From NCBI GenBank assembly GCA_000436795.1, contig HF993178.1, forward strand, positions 1 to 10,246: a DNA stretch of 10,246 bases, in the 5' to 3' direction. The position numbers and the translations under genes were made by a program. The DNA is from Bacteroides sp. CAG:1076 (GTDB taxonomy: Bacteria; Bacteroidota; Bacteroidia; Bacteroidales; Bacteroidaceae). Below are positions 610 to 10,246 of this stretch, piece after piece. The notes under the pieces are model-generated. The model made no database searches, had not been told where the DNA came from, and saw nothing but the letters and a program-made list of their open reading frames with translations. How positions within the stretch are numbered: position 1 is the stretch's first letter; every line of letters begins with the position of its first letter.

Positions 610-1164
610 TTAGGATATGAATCCTTCTACTGCCAGCATCTGGCTTCTCCATGAGAATCCCCGGTTTGACCGTACTGCATCCATGATCGTGTTTACTTTT
701 CCTGAAATGGCACTTGCCGATATACCCATACATTCACCCAACGCCTTGAATGAAAAGTCTGATTCATAAAAACGCAACGTAAACATCCTGTATTCCTGAT
801 AGGAGAACTTTCTTCTGATAAAGTTAAGAATGTCCTTCACCAGTTTTTCACAGCTGTTCAGGTCATCCGGAGAAAGGAAATCCGCATCTTCCCCACATCG
901 AAGAAAGAAATATTCATCCGGATGGGCATATTTGCTTTCCAGCCTGAACTTGGCCATGAACGCTTTCCTGTAACATCCGATAAAGTATGCTTCATAATCC
1001 GTTATTTCCCTTTCCGGATTCAGCACCTGTTTTCTTACAAACAGATAAGTGTCATGAAAATTGTCCTCATCCAGTGCCCCGTATCTGTCAACGAGATTTC
1101 TTAACCTGTCATAAGACACCGTAAACCAGTCATTGAACCTTTTTTCCACATTGTTCGCTTCCAT
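610..1164 (-). CDS. sigma-70 family-like protein, 184 aa
   Basis: The protein has the outline of a small ECF-type sigma factor. Residues about 8-48 (KRFNDWFTVSYDRLRNLVDR, then an acidic stretch and FHDTYLFV) resemble region 2, which binds core RNA polymerase and the -10 element. Residues about 119-165 end in a helix-turn-helix (FSFKALGECMGISASAISGK) resembling region 4, which reads the -35 element. The length is normal for the class. It sits between an integrase gene and a hypothetical gene, all leftward, so it may control genes of an integrated element rather than a host stress regulon. No anti-sigma gene is visible. It could also be a non-sigma regulator that borrowed the fold, since region 2 is weakly conserved. 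The ATG at 1162-1164 is the natural start. No convincing TAnnTTTG box was found just upstream. Confidence 0.65.
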   Translation of the reverse strand: MEANNVEKRFNDWFTVSYDRLRNLVDRYGALDEDNFHDTYLFVRKQVLNPEREITDYEAYFIGCYRKAFMAKFRLESKYAHPDEYFFLRCGEDADFLSPDDLNSCEKLVKDILNFIRRKFSYQEYRMFTLRFYESDFSFKALGECMGISASAISGKVNTIMDAVRSNRGFSWRSQMLAVEGFIS

Positions 1165-1464: not shown

Positions 1465-2706
1465 CTATAACCCCATCTTGCTCCTTACTATATTCATGTT
1501 GTCCTTCAGGTTCCTGTCCATGACTCTTGCATAATGTTGTGTCATTCTTGTGGATGCATGTCCGAGCATGGCAGACACCTCCTGTAATGGAACGTTGTTG
1601 GCCAGCGTGACGGTAGTAGCAAACGTATGTCGGGCTGCATGCGTGGTCAGATTCTTTTTGATGCCGCAGAAGTCCGCAATCTCCTTCAGGTAGCTGTTTG
1701 CCTTCTGATTGCAGACAACAGGAAGGCATGTCCCTTGTTTAAGACATGTCGGATGTGATTCGTATTTCTTCAGTATTGCCAATGGAACAGGAAGAAGCGG
1801 AACATTTGCTATGGAACTTGACTTTCTTCTTCTCTCCAGCTTTACACGTCCTTTTCTTATCCACCAGTCACCGTTATTGTCCTGCTCCAGATGTTCCGGT
1901 CTCAATGTGGATACATCAGCGAACGCCAGACCGGTGAAGCACGCAAACAAAAAGATGTCCTTGACAAGCTCCAGCCTCGGAATATCAAATTCCCTGTTCA
2001 TTATAGCCTGAAGCTCGTTGTTTGTCAGGAATACCGGATCAGTCTCGTCCTGTTCCATCTTATATCCGTAAAACGGGTCTTTCCGCATCCATTCTTTGGC
2101 TATTGCCATATTGGTGATTTTCTTCAGGCATTTCATGTAGCGGACTATTGTGTTGCGGCACAGTCCGGCTTCTGTCTTCAGGAAAACATCAAAAGCCTTG
2201 ATGAAATCAGGGGAAAGTTCATGGAATGTAATATCATCCTTCTCATAAAAACGTGGCACAAACGTTTCAAGTTTTCTGAGCACATTCTTATAACGGTTGA
2301 TGGTGACGGGAGAATAGTCTATGTCAACAACCTTCTCCATAGAAGAAATTTCTTCTTTGACTGTTCCAAGCAACGTCCGGACAGTTTCATCCTTTCCGAA
2401 CACACGCTTTAATATCGTCTTTGGAGTTATCAGTGCCGATTCAAAGGTCAGTTCCTTGTGCTTTTCGTATGCGCGTGTAGTGAGGGCGGAAATATAGTTG
2501 TTCAGTTCGATGGAAGCCCTGTCTTTTCCTTTGCTGCATCCCTTGGCCGGATTCCAGTTCTTTAATGGAACGCTTCTCTGTATTCTTATTTCTTCATATT
2601 GCCCGTTGATGGTAATCCTCATTAGGATTGGAGCCTCGCCATTTTTCAGCAGTTTTGTTTTCAGAACGAAAAATAGAATGTTCATTGTTCCTTGTTTCAT
2701 GATCAT
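1465..2706 (-). CDS. tyrosine recombinase (integrase), Bacteroides mobile-element type
   Basis: This is a site-specific DNA recombinase of the lambda-integrase superfamily, about 413 aa. It has an N-terminal arm-binding-like domain (FFVLKTKLLKNGEAPILMRI), a SAM-like core-binding domain near residues 120-220, and a C-terminal catalytic domain. Numbered from an ATG at 2727, box II is H363-A-A-R366-H367 in THAARHTFAT, box III is LGH390, and the nucleophile is Y399 in MTQHYARV. The box I arginine is absent: FTGLAFADV carries alanine at 268, as is common in Bacteroides integrases (IntDOT also lacks this arginine). A lysine in RRKSSS (302) is the likely beta-hairpin lysine. I prefer the ATG at 2704-2706, because it forms an ATGA overlap with the upstream ORF and follows an A-rich stretch. 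The gene reads away from tRNA-Phe, so it may belong to an element lying left of that tRNA. Confidence 0.9.
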   Translation of the reverse strand: MIMKQGTMNILFFVLKTKLLKNGEAPILMRITINGQYEEIRIQRSVPLKNWNPAKGCSKGKDRASIELNNYISALTTRAYEKHKELTFESALITPKTILKRVFGKDETVRTLLGTVKEEISSMEKVVDIDYSPVTINRYKNVLRKLETFVPRFYEKDDITFHELSPDFIKAFDVFLKTEAGLCRNTIVRYMKCLKKITNMAIAKEWMRKDPFYGYKMEQDETDPVFLTNNELQAIMNREFDIPRLELVKDIFLFACFTGLAFADVSTLRPEHLEQDNNGDWWIRKGRVKLERRRKSSSIANVPLLPVPLAILKKYESHPTCLKQGTCLPVVCNQKANSYLKEIADFCGIKKNLTTHAARHTFATTVTLANNVPLQEVSAMLGHASTRMTQHYARVMDRNLKDNMNIVRSKMGL

Positions 2707-2912
2707 TTTCTTTTTGAAGTTGCACATTCGGTTATTTCGTCAATCCTGAATTGAGGGGATGGCTGGAGAGAAATGTTAAATTCGGTGGCTTTTATTATTG
2801 CCGGCTCTAAAAAACCACCGATTTTTGTTTCTCTTACTATTATCCGCCTGTAGGTACAATCATTATCATCGGATAAGAAAGCCTTTAGCAGACGTTGTAT
2901 TTCATCCGTCAT
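2703..2912 (-). CDS. possible 69-residue protein coupled to the integrase
   Basis: This small ORF ends in TGA overlapping the preferred integrase ATG (ATGA at 2703-2706), and a perfect Bacteroides -7 box lies about 14 bp before its ATG. Both points support a real translated gene. The product has an acidic, polar N-terminus (MTDEIQRLLKAFLSDDND) and a C-terminal part containing GGFLEPAIIKATEFN. I do not recognise the family. A small excisionase-like or regulatory partner of the integrase would fit the position, but no helix-turn-helix is obvious. The codons for GGFLEPAIIKAT fall in the first copy of a duplicated palindrome, so part of the coding sequence may have come from a repeat. Confidence 0.4.
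   Translation of the reverse strand: MTDEIQRLLKAFLSDDNDCTYRRIIVRETKIGGFLEPAIIKATEFNISLQPSPQFRIDEITECATSKRK
2782..2821. repeat. palindromic repeat, copy 1 (GGTGGC family)
   Basis: The 40-nt element begins TCGGTGGCTTTT and ends AAAAAACCACCGA, so its ends are complementary apart from one missing G. The centre contains CCGGCTCTA. It lies inside the 69-residue ORF. It closely resembles copy 2 at 2995-3032. Confidence 0.6.
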
Positions 2913-3122: not shown

Positions 3123-3145
3123 CATGATTTTTCGTTTTGTAAAAG

Positions 3146-3218
3146 TGGTGCCACCAGGAATCGAACCGGGGACACAAGGATTTTCAGTCCTTTGCTCTAC
3201 CAACTGAGCTATGGCACC
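3146..3218 (-). tRNA. tRNA-Phe(GAA)
   Basis: The 73-nt gene folds as a complete cloverleaf. The acceptor stem is GGTGCCA with TGGCACC, the discriminator is A, the D-arm holds AGCTCAGTTGGTAGAGC, the anticodon loop is CTGAAAA with anticodon GAA, and the T-loop is TTCGATT. CCA is not encoded (AC follows). It has its own promoter (3257-3288) and terminator (3087-3122). Its last 18 nt plus 2 flanking nt recur at 3803-3822, marking this tRNA 3' end as an integrase target sequence. Confidence 0.97.
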
Positions 3219-3400: not shown

Positions 3401-3473
3401 CGGAATGTAGCGCAGTTGGTAGCGCACTACGTTCGGGACGTAGGGGTCGGGCGTTCGAGTCGCCTCATTCCGA
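3401..3473 (+). tRNA. tRNA-Pro(CGG)
   Basis: The cloverleaf is complete. The acceptor stem is CGGAATG with CATTCCG, the discriminator is A, the D-stem is GCGC/GCGC around AGTTGGTA, the anticodon stem is CTACG/CGTAG with loop TTCGGGA (anticodon CGG, reading CCG), and the T-arm is GGGCG-TTCGAGT-CGCCT. CCA is not encoded. Its own promoter and an immediate terminator make it a single-gene unit. Confidence 0.96.
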
Positions 3474-3476
3474 CAG

Positions 3477-3802: not shown

Positions 3803-3822
3803 AGTGGTGCCACCAGGAATCG
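3803..3822 (-). repeat. tRNA-Phe 3' remnant, probable attachment site
   Basis: This 20-bp sequence is identical and in the same orientation to 3144-3163, the 3' end of the intact tRNA-Phe. It covers the last 18 nt of the gene and 2 nt beyond. To its right the tRNA sequence stops at once and AT-rich island DNA begins; to its left is a terminator suited to a tRNA. This is the expected junction when an element integrates into a tRNA 3' end. The complete tRNA should have been rebuilt at the far end of the island, outside this window. Confidence 0.75.
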
Positions 3823-3935
3823 TAATCTAACGATAAGTGGCTGAATATCTTTGATGTATCTTTTAGCTAAAGAAGTAATCTCCCGCTATTGCTCCACCGG
3901 ATTCTTGCAATATTTTGCACAAGGTTGCGTGGATA

Positions 3936-3961
3936 ATTTCCTAGGAACAAAAATAGGAAAT
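3936..3961. repeat. inverted repeat upstream of the rexA-like gene
   Basis: The perfect 8-bp arms ATTTCCTA and TAGGAAAT lie 10 bp apart, about 70 bp before the -7 box of the downstream operon. It may be an operator or a recombinase site. The rest of 3823-4029 shows only a stray TATCTTTG (3846-3853) without a gene behind it. Confidence 0.35.
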
Positions 3962-4029
3962 ATATTGATATTTTCTACTTTTTAATTCATTTTTCTAGAT
4001 ATAAAAGTAGCTTTTTCAGGTATTATTCT

Positions 4030-4037
4030 TATATTTG
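4030..4037 (+). promoter_or_regulatory. -7 box of the rexA-rexB-like operon
   Basis: TATATTTG is a perfect TAnnTTTG. No clear TTTG lies 20 bp upstream, only a T-rich run at 4012-4016. Transcription would start near 4042-4046, just before the ATG at 4048 and about 15 nt before the in-frame ATG at 4060, which favours the second ATG. Confidence 0.5.
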
Positions 4038-4047
4038 TCCTTATTAA

Positions 4048-5016
4048 ATGAATAATTGTATGGCAAATATTCCTCCCAAAAAGCTTACCCTAAGAGCATT
4101 TAGAATAGAGAATCCTAATCTTACCGAAGCTCATTCTGGTATACTAGGGCTGTTACAACAGGTTTTAACCGCTGGATCAATAGCAGCACAACGTCGTATG
4201 ACATTAAATGCAGAAGATCCTGATAGAGAATTGTTGGCAAATTTTATATGGGCTCCTAACAATGCATATTTATTCGGTATGATGCTTCGTGTTATACCAG
4301 CTGACACTGGTGGCGTTATGGATGAACAGTTATTCAACCAACCAACAATAACAATGGCAGATGTAAATGAAGGTAATCCTAGTCAGAGCCAATATAAAGA
4401 TCATTTCTATTTTGCTATAAATAATAATTTTCTGGTTACCAATTTAGCTGGAAACATTAACATTGATCGACTTCAGACATATATAAATTGGCTACTTGAA
4501 AGTGTAAGAGGGGAAAAACTTTTCCAATTTACAGAGTTGACAAAATTACCAGATGGTGTGCCATTAAGTGATATTAAAGACATTCAATTTGTCGGCGGTG
4601 GTAGCATTGTAAGTACAACACCAACAGAAGGTGAGCAAACTACAATTGCAGCAAGATTAGGTAATATAACAAATGGAATTTTAGAGCAATTACTTGGTAA
4701 TGACACAGCTAATTTAGAAAAAATACGTGCAAATCAGCTTGTAGAAGCCAAGTTAGTACTGAAAATAAAAGGGAAAAGTAAAGGGTTGGCTACTGAGGAA
4801 TACAAACGCGTTATGAGTGCACTTGCTACAAATGTAACTAATGATAGCGGTATAGTTGTACGCACTAAAACGGGAAACAAATATACAGGTGCAGCTGTTA
4901 AAGTAAAAAAATCGATTACTGTTCAGTGTGTTGCTCCCAATCGTATTGTGGAAGAACAGTTAAAACAACAAATGGAGCAATTTTTAAGCGAAGTACGAGA
5001 ACTAGAGAATGAGTAG
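4048..5016 (+). CDS. RexA-like soluble protein of a putative phage exclusion pair
   Basis: This 322-residue protein has no signal peptide or membrane helix. Against lambda RexA as I remember it (279 aa), several spaced features agree in order: a strand ending FYFAINNNF (120-128; RexA FLFVEGDTI), an L-rich helix near 141-151, then GEKLFQF-T-E-L (155-164; RexA GERVQIEPL), SDIKDIQFVGGGSI (174-187; RexA DDVMHMHFIGRTTV), ILEQLLG (211-217; RexA ILKVLG), LVLKIKGKSK (236-245; RexA IVIKPKFK) and a charged C-terminal helix. Together with a four-helix membrane partner directly downstream, this suggests a RexAB-like module, in which RexA senses a phage intermediate and activates the channel RexB. The ATG at 4060 (MANIPPKK) is the likelier start. 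The resemblance is by eye and remote; an unrelated two-gene abortive system is the alternative. Confidence 0.5.
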   Translation: MNNCMANIPPKKLTLRAFRIENPNLTEAHSGILGLLQQVLTAGSIAAQRRMTLNAEDPDRELLANFIWAPNNAYLFGMMLRVIPADTGGVMDEQLFNQPTITMADVNEGNPSQSQYKDHFYFAINNNFLVTNLAGNINIDRLQTYINWLLESVRGEKLFQFTELTKLPDGVPLSDIKDIQFVGGGSIVSTTPTEGEQTTIAARLGNITNGILEQLLGNDTANLEKIRANQLVEAKLVLKIKGKSKGLATEEYKRVMSALATNVTNDSGIVVRTKTGNKYTGAAVKVKKSITVQCVAPNRIVEEQLKQQMEQFLSEVRELENE

Positions 5017-5464
5017 AATGATAATACGTATAGCATTAGCAATAGGAGTAGCTATATTACTGGCTATTGCTGGTGTGAATGGCAATGCAATAGTGCTGCA
5101 AACGCTATTCACGGTCTTAGGTATTGTCTTTTCTATAAGTATGAGTTTGTTAGTATCTTTTAGTCTTACAAAAATACTTAATAAAAAAATACGGGATAGT
5201 TTACGGATATCCATATCGCATACACGTAATATGTTATTGCTAGATTTTAGCATGTCTACAATTGTGTCTGTAGTAGCTTTAATCTGGGATAGTAAATTAT
5301 TAAGATATACGTTTAAAGGTATTATACTAGACATAATGCTGATAGGAGTCATGCTTATTGCAACTTCGTTAATTTACGAAATTTATAATTTTCGTAAATT
5401 ACATAAGCTGCATACTGACATAGAAGATGCTATAATAGCAGAAGAAACAAAGAAAGCTAGTTAA
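5009..5464 (+). CDS. RexB-like four-helix membrane protein
   Basis: This 151-residue inner-membrane protein has four predicted helices at about 4-21, 29-51, 75-93 and 104-124. A basic loop (KILNKKIRDSLR) follows helix 2, and the cytoplasmic tail is charged (NFRKLHKLHTDIED and on). Its ATG overlaps the end of the upstream gene by 8 bp, so translation is coupled and the two products probably act together. Lambda RexB is 144 aa, has four helices, follows rexA, and as I remember ends in LYNLTREQE; here helix 4 ends in IYEIYNFRK. RexB is proposed to be an ion channel that depolarises the infected cell. The membrane topology is secure; the RexB assignment rests on size, order and weak similarity. 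Confidence 0.5.
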   Translation: MSRMIIRIALAIGVAILLAIAGVNGNAIVLQTLFTVLGIVFSISMSLLVSFSLTKILNKKIRDSLRISISHTRNMLLLDFSMSTIVSVVALIWDSKLLRYTFKGIILDIMLIGVMLIATSLIYEIYNFRKLHKLHTDIEDAIIAEETKKAS

Positions 5465-5585
5465 AAAATCCGTATACATTTAGTAACCTACAATCTATTA
5501 TAAAATTGAGGTCTGATTGTATTTGCGAGGGCAAAGTTACAGCCAAACCTCAAAGTATGAAAGGTGCATTTATTCGAATGCTTAC
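5465..5585. other. convergent intergenic gap between the two defence modules
   Basis: The rexB-like gene and hsdR end facing each other here. The only structure is an imperfect inverted repeat, TTGAGGT (5507-5513) with ACCTCAA (5548-5554), which lacks a T-run. No strong terminator for either side is seen. Confidence 0.5.
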
Positions 5586-8500
5586 TTATAATCTACCACC
5601 AACACCTTTAAATTTATCGATAAAAGCAACTATCTTTTGAAATACGGTCTGCTTCTTCGTCAGATATTGGGGATTCAAAGGACTCATTTTCGGTAAAATG
5701 TTGTTGAAATCAGTTCCGTTCTCACTAGCGTATTCACGCTTTAAAGATATCTCCATATAATGTTTAGCTTCTCTTTCGTTTAACTTTTCGTTTGCAATCA
5801 AGTCAGCTGCTTCTTCTTTTTGCTTGGCCTGTGCATATTCAAAAAATGCTTTTATAATTTCTGTTTTATCAGAAATAGCATCAAGATTAGCATCATTGAT
5901 AAAATCAACAATCAAACTTTCTTTGGCTCTGTTACCTACACTTGACCGAATGATCCGACGAATTTCCTCTATCAAAGAGGATTTATCCATCTTCTTTTTA
6001 TTGTGTTCAAAAATCAGTTCAAGGATATAATCCAGATTTATTTCTTGTGATTTAAGCAGATCTATCTCAAATACAACATCATCCCAATCAATTCTTGATT
6101 TTTCTGATTTATTGCCTTCTTTTTCTCGTCTTAACCAGTCCCGTATGTCGTTATAAATTGATTTATAATCCTGAATGATTCTGTCAGACGGCATTTGCAA
6201 TTTCTGCATTTTTGCAATATCACTATCTGTAACAAAATAATCGTTTTTAAATGTCTCTACAGCTTCCTTATCGTTAATGTCCAAAGTCTGAAAAGCTTTG
6301 AGCGTGGTAAACTCATCAAAATTCTGAAGTATGTTTTCCACACGCAAATATTCCCCGAACAATTTGACAAATTCTTTTTTATCCTGTTCTGTATTTATTT
6401 TGTCTGTATCAGGAAACTTATCACTCAGTTCTTTTACAATATCAATATATCCTTTTCGAGTTTCACCGGAAACAATATCCTTAAAACCTTCCAAATACTC
6501 TTTGTAACTTTTTTCGAGTACTACATTTGCAGTATTCTCATCACCAAATAATCTTATTGCATCAACCGTATGCTTTTCAAGGTCTCTGAAAGTTACGATA
6601 TTACCGAACGTTTTGGTTGAGTCGTAAATTCTGTTTGTACGAGAAAAAGCCTGTATCAGTCCATGAAAACGCAAATTCTTATCTACGAAAAGAGTATTCA
6701 GAGTCGGAGCATCAAAACCTGTAAGGAACATACCAACTACTATTACAAGATCCACCTCTTTATTCTTTATCCTCTTGGCCAAGTCTCTGTAATAATTCTG
6801 AAATTCTTTGCTGTCAATGCCATAGCTTGTCCCAAACAGGTTATTGTAATCATTAATAGCTTTAGTCAGGAACTCTTTCGCACTGAGAGCCATTGCCGAA
6901 GGTTCGAAATTTTCATCAGATATCTCACCTATTGCACTTTGCTCTTCGTTGGCAGCAAAAGAAAATATTGTAGCTATTTTCAGAGGCTTTCCCGAGTTTT
7001 TCTGCAATCGGTTTAACTCTTCGTAGTAGCATTTGGCTGCATCCACACTGCTGACAGCAAACATTGCATTGAAACCTTTGCTATTACTTTGATTTCGGTG
7101 TGTTTTTGTTCTGAAATTCTTCAGTATATATTGGGATATTTCATTGACACGAGCAGGATGAAGCAATGCCTGCTTGTTTTCTGCGGCACTCAGCTTATGC
7201 TCGTCAAGTTCTGTTTCTATATTCTTGAAACGAGGTCTTACATTGTTGTAATCTACTTTGAATTTCAAGACTTTTTCATCACGAATAGCATCGGTTATAA
7301 CATACGAATGCAATTCACGACCGAACACACTTGCCGTTGTTTCCGAGCCATTGGCATTTTCCGGAAAGATAGGTGTTCCAGTAAAACCGAACTGATAATA
7401 TTTCTTGAATTTCTTTTTCAGCTGCTTTTGTGCCTCGCCGAATTGGGAACGGTGACACTCATCAAAAATGAAAACCACCTGCTTCTGATAAATCGGAAGA
7501 TTGTCTTCACTTTTCATCAGGTTATTAAGTTTCTGAATAGTAGTGACAATAATTCTATTGTCATCCTTTTCTATATTCCGTTTCAATCCTGCTGTGCTTT
7601 CAGACCCATTGACACTATCCGGAGAGAACCTCTGATATTCTTTCATAGTCTGATAGTCAAGGTCCTTGCGATCTACCACAAAGAACACCTTATCGATAAA
7701 GTCTAATTCTGTTGCCAATCGTGCCGCCTTAAAGCTAGTAAGAGTTTTCCCAGAACCTGTAGTATGCCAAATATATCCTCCCCCCTCAGTCGTAGACCAT
7801 TTTTTTGCTTGATATGAGCTTTTTATTTTCCACAACATACGCTCTGTTGCCGCAATCTGATACGGACGCATTATTAGCAATGTGTTATTTACATCAAAGA
7901 CTGAATAAGTAAAGATGACATTAAGCAATGTGTTCTTTTGAAAAAATGTCTCCGTGAAATCTTTCAAGTCTTTTATCGCAATATTCTTGGCATTTGCCCA
8001 ATTCATTGTAAAGTCAAAACTGTTCTTGTTACGTTCAACAGTATTAGCAAAATAACGGCTATCTGTACCGTTTGAAATGACAAATACTTGGATATACTTG
8101 AAAAGTGAGTTATCGCTATTGAAACTTTCCTTGGAATATCGGTGAACCTGATTGAACGCTTCACGAATAGCAACTCCTCTCCTTTTCAATTCGATTTGTA
8201 CTAATGGTAAACCATTGACCAGAATAGTAACATCATAGCGGTTTGCTTGAGCTCCAGTCTGCTCAAATTGGTTGATTACCTGTATCTTGTTTTGGGCGAT
8301 ATCTTGTTTATTAACAAGATAGATATTTTTAATATGTCCGTCATCGAAAACAAAATCATAGATATAGTTATCATGAATCTTACGGGTTTTGTCTATCAAG
8401 GTATCTCCCGGCTTATCCAAATATTCAACTACAAATCGTACCCATTCCTTGTCAGTAAACTCCACATCGTTAAGTTCCTGAATTTTCAAACGGACATTAG

Positions 8501-8699
8501 CCAGTAATGCTTCAGGTGTTGAAATATCCTGGCGATATTCATAGCCTTGATTCACTAAGTCTTGAATAAACTCGTGTTCAAGACTAGCTTCCGATTGGTA
8601 CACAACAGAAGCCTCATGAAGTTCATTATACTTAGTATAAGCATCAAGTACAATGAAATTATTTGATTCTGCTATGATGTTATATTGTGCCATTTTCAT
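5586..8699 (-). CDS. hsdR: type I restriction enzyme R subunit (HsdR), type IC-like
   Basis: This is the DNA-translocating endonuclease subunit of a type I restriction-modification complex. The 1037 residues match EcoR124I HsdR (about 1038). The N-terminal PD-(D/E)xK nuclease shows D156, E170 and K172 in NRYDV and VQIELKR, the same spacing as D151/E165/K167 of EcoR124I. The helicase motor follows: Walker A TTGSGKT (313-319), DECH box (413-416), GFTGTP (438-443), motif [11 protein letters not shown] (655-664) and motif [10 protein letters not shown] (683-690). The C-terminal helical region binds the methylase core. It appears intact. The ATG at 8697-8699 overlaps the end of prrC by 20 bp, giving translational coupling; a second ATG two codons on is possible. 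It is the last gene of a leftward hsdS-prrC-hsdR unit. It cuts unmodified DNA in the cytoplasm. Confidence 0.96.
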
Positions 8700-9879
8700 T
8701 AATATCTTTAGCTTGTTCTTTGAAATGATACGTTGTCTTAATGTTTTCTACCAAGAAGGTTAGGACTCTCTTATCGTTATCATCAATTAAAGAGATTTCT
8801 TCTCCAGAATGTTTTCCATGACTACACAAATTTATAATACGATTATAGTATGCCTCCTGTGCATCATGGGGTAATAGTTCTTTCCATGTCGTATATCCAA
8901 GAAATGTTGAAGTTTTTTCTAATATCTGTCGTAAGAAATTATAGTGATACTTCTTGATTTCACCTGATTTTATAGCCTTTTCAAGTTCAGTTAATAGAAA
9001 AAGATGATACGAGAAAGGGGAATCTACAGATTGTTCTACAAGTAAATAGGTCCCGTCGCTCATCTTTTCCAATCGTCGTTTTATTGAATGTTTAGGCTTA
9101 TAGTTATACCGTTTGTCGGAATTGCTAAATTCATTATAAAGCACATTATAAAATAGGGGATTATGTGTAGTAATAATAAATTTTAATTGTGATTGGCTTG
9201 ACTTTATTAATTCTGAAATATTTACAGCTAACTCAATTAAATGGTTTTCGTCCAACGAACTTACGGGGTCATCTATAAATACATATTTTAGATCATTAAA
9301 TTGATCCGTTTCTCTATCCGCCTCTTCAGCCACATTTAACACTTCAATAACTTGTTCAAGTAAACTATAAAATACACACCAAATTAGGCAACTTTCTTCT
9401 CCTTTCGATATTTTTATATTCTCAATTTTGCCTTCATTGCCACTTTCTACTGAGAATATAATTTCTGAATATGCTTTGACAGTAATGTCCTTATCATTTT
9501 CATCTTTTGCTGTATATTCTTCATTAAAACGAGGCGTTAATTTGTTATTTGTATAACGCTGAAAATTGGTAACTATATTTCTTTCTTGACCTTGTTCTTT
9601 AAGAATCCAATCGGTAAAACTATTTGGTTGTATTTTGAGCTTTCTTGTAGAATCTGCATATAAATCATTGTCCCAGTAGAACAAATCCTCAGTAAAGGCA
9701 TTATAATACAAAACCTTTATTTTTGAATCTTCTACCTCGCCATCATGGCTCTTGGGAGAAATCAATTCTTTGAATTCACGCGACAGACGAGTTTTACCTA
9801 CACCATTGAAGGCATAAATCAACTGTACCTTTTTTTCTGAACAAAGGTCATGTGCTATTTCTTTTAATGATTGTCCCAT
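8680..9879 (-). CDS. prrC: PrrC-type anticodon nuclease (tRNA-Lys cleaving guard of HsdRMS)
   Basis: The 399-residue protein is close in length to E. coli PrrC (396) and lies, as there, between hsdS and hsdR. The N-terminal ABC-type ATPase has Walker A in [12 protein letters not shown] (22-33), signature-like KISKGEES (157-164), Walker B and D-loop [11 protein letters not shown] (200-210) and the switch histidine in TTHNP (H239). The C-terminal nuclease part shows R317 and E321 ([13 protein letters not shown]), then H354 in NLCSHGKHS, corresponding to the PrrC triad R320-E324-H356. VDSPFSYH (285-292) aligns with the PrrC segment around D287 that helps read the tRNA-Lys anticodon. In E. coli the enzyme is held silent by the type IC complex and cleaves tRNA-Lys when phage T4 Stp perturbs it. 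Its ATG is 1 nt after the hsdS stop. Compared with E. coli PrrC a short N-terminal insertion before Walker A seems missing. Confidence 0.9.
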
Positions 9880-9880
9880 A

Positions 9881-10246
9881 TTATGCTTCTTTTATTTTCT
9901 GGAATGACAATAACTTGTTTCTATAATACTCATATTGTTCCTTTCTCGCTTGCAGCTCCGCTTGCAGCTCCGCAGCAAATTTGGTCAAGCAATCAAGAAT
10001 GCGAACTATTTCTTCTTGCACTTCAAGGGGAGGAACTGCGATTTCAACCTTATTTAAAATAGACTGTGTCAAACTTGGAACTCCACCTGCTTTATTCAAA
10101 TTCTCCAAATGTTCATTAGCTAATACATAATACAGATACTTGGCTATAATCTGATTTATATCAATTTCAGTATAAAAGATTGTATCAACATTCCAAAATG
10201 GAGTATCAACATAAAATAAACAGATAGCTAAAAAGTAAATTTGAGA
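9881..10246 (-). CDS. hsdS: type I restriction specificity subunit (HsdS), 3' part only
   Basis: The gene is open to the right edge, so only the last 121 or so residues are seen. They are the end of the second target-recognition domain ([15 protein letters not shown], then [20 protein letters not shown]), the typical [20 protein letters not shown] junction, and the C-terminal conserved helix EEIVRIL...[18 protein letters not shown]. An internal TTG at 10106-10108 is not the true start; the frame continues upstream. HsdS sets the DNA sequence recognised by methylase and nuclease. The C-terminal coiled coil contains a perfect 12-bp tandem duplication coding AELQAELQ. Its stop is followed after 1 nt by prrC. 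hsdM and the first recognition domain should lie outside the window. Confidence 0.93.
9947..9973. repeat. 12-bp tandem repeat in hsdS
   Basis: Two perfect copies of CGCTTGCAGCTC (9947-9958 and 9959-9970) plus the first three bases of a third are in frame and encode the AELQ repeat of the HsdS C-terminal helix. A whole-unit gain or loss would lengthen or shorten the helix by four residues without a frameshift. Confidence 0.85.

Follow-up and report, generated by a model that had tools for sequence, protein, structure and literature searches.

RexAB of phage lambda was the first abortive-infection system to be tied to anti-phage defence, and one account, in which the lambda trigger is still given as unresolved, counts only five RexAB-like systems as described (PMC12894663). 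A few more actinophage homologues have been named (PMC11077077). For lambda, Sbash, CarolAnn and Pseudomonas putida, the prevailing view is that infection is sensed by the soluble protein, which then activates its membrane partner (PMC11077077, PMC6426596, PMC6426606, PMC12894663). Non-specific DNA binding has been reported for RexA, three actinophage homologues and RexApp (PMC11077077, PMC12894663). In P. putida the membrane protein was the growth-stopping effector, and permeability rose with no depolarisation seen. For Sbash gp31, R70 and D73 in the central cytoplasmic loop were needed for defence (PMC6426596). Here, we analyzed two overlapping genes, encoding a soluble protein and a four-helix membrane protein, in a 10,246-nucleotide stretch of Bacteroides sp. 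CAG:1076 (contig HF993178.1; this whole stretch is referred to as the window).

We consider it probable that the two genes belong to a divergent family of RexAB-type modules that act by abortive infection. This reading draws on the gene layout, the homologous pairing, the predicted fold and the location behind a CI-type repressor in the lambda-like loci, all of which we observed; DNA binding, activation, membrane damage and defence would be expected by analogy with the work on lambda, Sbash, CarolAnn and P. putida. A divergent Rex module had been proposed in an earlier, sequence-only reading of the window, and the proposal gained support from a RexA-like predicted fold and from a membrane partner in each of the 12 distinct loci compared with the window. 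No RexAB system in Bacteroidota was described in the literature that we searched, as far as listings and selected passages show.

Predicted fold, membrane partner and sequence comparisons

The soluble protein has a RexA-like predicted fold. Lambda RexA (8twq) was the top PDB match of the predicted monomer in both Foldseek and VIA-align, a comparison that had been set beforehand as a test, and strand counts agreed only roughly. Eighteen of the 24 invariant positions of the soluble family lie in the globular domain, and the protein is slightly acidic. In BFVD, the uncharacterised phage proteins A0A8S5S8L2, A0A8S5QGP5 and A0A6J5Q1Z2 matched the soluble model (E 1.5e-11 to 1.3e-6) and are further candidates for a RexA fold; phage RdgC proteins matched it less well (E 1.7e-3).

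The four membrane helices claimed earlier for the 151-residue partner were recovered both by hydropathy and by structure prediction. Hydropathy peaks were found near residues 4-22, 28-52, 76-94 and 103-121, with only a shallow dip between the first two. The model, built from a 39-sequence alignment (predicted local distance difference test, pLDDT, 84.6; predicted template modelling score, pTM, 0.75), has four separate long helices (2-20, 27-49, 59-92 and 109-150) and a small hairpin between the third and the fourth. T32, G38, I39, F41, S42, N58, F80, N127, F128 and I138 were conserved in 16/16 sequences and R66 and R73 in 15/16; most of the invariant positions are found in helix 2, in the central loop or in the C-terminal helix. 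R66 and R73 may correspond to R70 and D73 of Sbash gp31 by topology, not by alignment. No BFVD entry matched the membrane model at E<=0.001 and none was named RexB; the top entry was a 170-aa protein without a name (8.2e-3). A Sbash protein of 165 aa came at rank 26, but with an E of 2.8 this is not evidence.

An overlapping open reading frame (ORF) that has three or more strong hydrophobic segments follows the soluble ORF in all of a set of 15 loci inspected, several of which are near-duplicates (related loci are numbered with L). Homologues lacking the membrane partner were looked for, and it was kept in every distinct locus, with overlaps of 4-26 bp. The two window ORFs and their 8-bp overlap, as first described, were borne out by the ORFs read, and the same overlap recurs in L002, L003, L004 and L007. 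Paired membrane ORFs were also found in L041/L046, L045, L027, L028 and L009, and in L029 the frame runs past the contig end. The membrane partners of the 12 distinct loci are homologous to that of the window (scores 124 to 512 vs shuffle maxima 51-71), with scores of 124-165 against maxima of 51-66 for five lambda-like loci. As an independent check, the lists of homologues of the two proteins (120 each) had 23 longest-contig sizes in common, compared with a mean of 1.28 and a maximum of 4 in shifted controls (n=60). Two annotations deserve mention. The record of Acinetobacter phage TCUAN1 (L005) annotates only 6151-6369 of a 151-aa membrane ORF at 5914-6369. In Escherichia coli NZ_AP025214.2 (L042, 19080-19530) the membrane gene is unannotated, between a coding sequence ending at 1619096 and one starting at 1619999; its frame is open and its DNA is 100% identical to that of Escherichia phage PhiR68_2.

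The pair resembles lambda RexA-RexB in gene order, similar sizes, the four-helix membrane partner and the RexA-like predicted fold, and the Escherichia phage and prophage members share the genomic position of rexAB. It differs in that a 15-bp gap separates rexA from rexB, whereas the genes of this family overlap, and in that the window copy does not lie beside a repressor. The sequence-only reading had also seen residues shared with RexA and with the RexB C-terminus, which were not supported: the alignment scores of 35 and 47 fell among those of shuffled sequences (maxima 52 and 67). In Pfam, lambda RexA and RexB match PF15969 and PF15968 at 1e-97 and 8.5e-92, whereas the window pair had no match to either up to E 1 and thus lies outside these sequence families. 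HHalign gave nothing against lambda RexA (A6, 0.1%), lambda RexB (A9, 0.3%) or Sbash/CarolAnn/Sejanus (A7 and A8), where a comparison with the window soluble protein reached 0.04%. It should be noted that the alignments were shallow (3-4 sequences on one side) and that a control in which lambda RexA was compared with the Sbash family, its accepted homologue, gave nothing either (0.14%). Thus, these comparisons are uninformative rather than negative, and strict homology rests on fold, partner and position.

Like the window pair, Sbash gp30/gp31 and CarolAnn gp44/gp43, prophage-borne systems tested for phage defence (PMC6426596, PMC6426606), consist of a soluble protein and a four-helix protein whose genes overlap, by 41 and 26 bp, but their soluble proteins are longer and no sequence similarity to the window pair was found. 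Sbash proteins fall in phrog_36224 and phrog_38328, whereas the window soluble protein matched phrog_3482 (unknown function; 1.7e-13) and not phrog_36224; phrog_3482 was also matched by the TCUAN1 protein but not by the PhiR68_2 protein. P. putida RexABpp (PP_5643/PP_5644) has a longer RexB, with mutations reported up to residue 181. DUF4747, which has been linked to RexA by HHpred in papers, had no match in three related genomes, a result without weight because the controls were silent too. Pfam, NCBIfam and PADLOC name neither protein of the pair (only matches well below cut-off or with E above 0.05), and no confident match of the soluble protein to an unrelated named family was found in these databases or in PHROGs. 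A sequence search of solved structures with the soluble family alignment A1 gave nothing up to E 10.

Distribution and genomic setting of the family

At E<=0.001, the soluble ORF had 173 homologues and the membrane ORF 231, and on this basis the pair is no chance occurrence. With alignment A4 the soluble family reached 228 homologues; scoring was limited here to the 7994 candidates that had the most words in common. The metagenomes included 51 contigs with an identical membrane protein, and a cluster of 99% identical soluble proteins comprised 72 sequences. Related loci were found in two Muribaculaceae metagenome-assembled genomes (MAGs), one Prevotellaceae MAG and viral contigs, and these relatives point to a Bacteroidota host for the window. 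Two of 50,697 phage records matched, PhiR68_2 and TCUAN1, and no match could be identified among 72,556 plasmid records. The membrane protein alone retrieved no phage record by tblastn, although the PhiR68_2 and TCUAN1 partners exist at 29% identity. The family is rare among species representatives: one of 393 genomes of the order (the genome on which that search was centred), four of 297 of a family (three being MAG loci already known) and two of 395 of the phylum (one being the centre genome) were positive. At least 80% of the PhiR68_2 stretch was present in 42 of 5426 E. coli genomes; among 25 entries sampled across 1747 matching E. coli records, all but one cover no more than ~45-55 bp, at the far end of the stretch.

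In PhiR68_2 the pair occupies the lambda rexAB site, the gene order being cro, cI, soluble gene, membrane gene, gam, bet, exonuclease and integrase. The E. coli prophage pair (one genome read) lies beside intD, tRNA-Arg and folD, with emrE, nohD and rrrD, in what we take to be a DLP12-type prophage. An upstream repressor with Peptidase_S24 and helix-turn-helix domains was found in 4/4 loci tested (TCUAN1, L030, L031 and L035), with one small ORF between repressor and pair in TCUAN1 and L031. Location beside CI was seen in five lambda-like loci, whereas the window copy lies by a tRNA-Phe copy and restriction genes; such a location is not strictly defining, because Sbash also lacks it (PMC6426596).

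The setting of the pair in Bacteroidota differs from the lambda-like setting. By Pfam, an integrase precedes the pair in L002 and L003, and in L003 an amidase follows it; a glycosyl hydrolase 108 gene is near the pair in L007. L008 has an integrase beside the pair and adjoins a tRNA-Phe gene whose 3' end has no second copy there. L004 adjoins the PADLOC candidates PDC-S27 and PDC-M29A, and L045 has a GajB-like helicase and a DarT match (1.4e-8) as neighbours. In L045 (6884-12325) the GajB-like neighbour is a UvrD helicase, an ADP-ribosylglycohydrolase-like protein was recognized by eye without a PADLOC match, and the 15 kb read showed no obvious phage gene on visual inspection. The earlier view that the pair lies outside the lambda setting is thus true of the window copy, but not of the family, members of which directly follow cI in an Escherichia phage and in the one E. 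coli prophage read, and which has integrase genes near several Bacteroidota loci.

Alternative explanations and possible mode of action

In mycobacteriophage Butters, gp30/gp31 have an equal layout and reversed roles (PMC7542560, PMC12894663), so that antiviral or toxic activity could here reside in the soluble protein itself, held and restrained by the membrane protein. The conserved overlap would suit any stoichiometry-dependent pair. We regard this arrangement as unlikely, since the membrane protein is the effector in four of the five RexAB-like systems counted (PMC12894663), and good conservation of its helix 2, central loop and C-terminal helix is what a working effector would show, although a restrainer could be conserved too. 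Still less probable is that the soluble protein is RdgC-like and serves DNA management or a lysogeny switch, with the membrane protein as an accessory and defence not the main role. RexA scored higher than RdgC against the soluble model (9.3 vs 6.5), the four-helix partner accompanies all 12 distinct loci, whereas RdgC is not known to have a membrane partner, and restriction genes or candidate defence genes adjoin the pair in the window, L004 and L045. It is very improbable that the pair is merely left over from a decayed prophage and serves no function today: an exact copy of a tRNA-Phe 3' end precedes the pair by 225 bp, and inspection by eye of the ORFs from 3803 to 5586 revealed no obvious phage structural gene, but both frames are intact and conserved and the near-identical metagenomic copies recur.

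If the pair is a RexAB-type module, the soluble protein would have the RexA architecture, with a split globular domain, an inserted dimerisation domain and a returning C-terminal helix, and might act as a dimer able to clamp DNA. It could sense a phage replication product or a phage protein. The four-helix effector would be translated in step with the sensor and stay silent until activated by it; the activated effector would then damage the inner membrane, by a type of damage that we leave open, and stop growth, so that infection aborts.

A wider proposal is possible but more doubtful, namely that the family represents a second, phylum-spanning RexAB lineage. In enterobacteria it would be an alternative allele at the lambdoid rexAB site, whereas in Bacteroidota it would lie outside the immunity region as a stand-alone island defence without a prophage repressor; in the window, beside restriction and PrrC, it might provide a second line against phages that disarm restriction.

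Features of the window and significance of the family

The features are collected in Table 1. The soluble protein may start at the second ATG (base 4060), because most of the 30 A1 sequences begin there. A promoter-like box, mentioned in the first description, is indeed present before the pair, and TAnnTTTG is presumably the Bacteroidota promoter -7 consensus; alone, the box is weak, since 10 such boxes occur on both strands of the window against 6.0 expected.

Table 1. Positions of the gene pair and its neighbours in the window
Feature	Position	Strand	Remarks
Tyrosine integrase	1465-2727		Upstream of pair
tRNA-Phe	3145-3218		Upstream of pair
tRNA-Pro	3401-3474		Upstream of pair
Exact 20-bp copy of tRNA-Phe 3' end	3803-3822	not assigned	Candidate attachment site
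Possible Bacteroidota-type promoter -7 box TATATTTG	4030-4037	+	Weak evidence; consensus presumed
RexA-like soluble ORF	4048-5016	+	322 aa; start possibly 4060 (318 aa)
8-bp gene overlap	5009-5016	+	Possible translational coupling
RexB-like membrane ORF	5009-5464	+	151 aa; four membrane helices
HsdR	5586-8699		Downstream, convergent to pair; type I restriction operon
PrrC-like gene	8680-9879	-	PADLOC PrrC 7.7e-143; between HsdS and HsdR
HsdS piece	9881-10246		Type I restriction operon

The tRNA-Phe copy, whose original lies at 3144-3163, is likely an attachment site with its other end beyond the window; shuffles gave a mean of 0.00 such copies, with up to three mismatches allowed. That the pair came with the integrase element is less likely, as the tRNA-Phe gene points that element left, away from the pair. 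Judging from orientation only, the pair more likely belongs to the DNA right of the copy. Left of the integrase, a 184-aa protein (610-1164, minus strand) had a weak match to sigma-70 region 4 (E 0.029, below the Pfam cut-off).

The adjoining restriction system noted at the outset proved to be a type I operon with HsdR, a PrrC-like gene and a piece of HsdS. The PrrC-like anticodon-nuclease gene within it places a prr-type locus next to a Rex-type pair. Exclusion of T4 mutants is a classical property of both Rex and Prr.

As a probable new, divergent variant of RexAB, the pair suggests that this old, poorly understood antiviral system has more variety than is seen among its annotated members. 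The E. coli member would be easy to test in K-12; it may have been tested before by Brenes and Laub 2025, a study reported to deal with E. coli prophage defence systems, which may have included a phage of this type. The family counts at least 173 related proteins and extends to both Bacteroidota MAGs and E. coli prophages; together with the invariant residues located in the two partners, it offers natural variation for testing the RexA trigger and the action of RexB.
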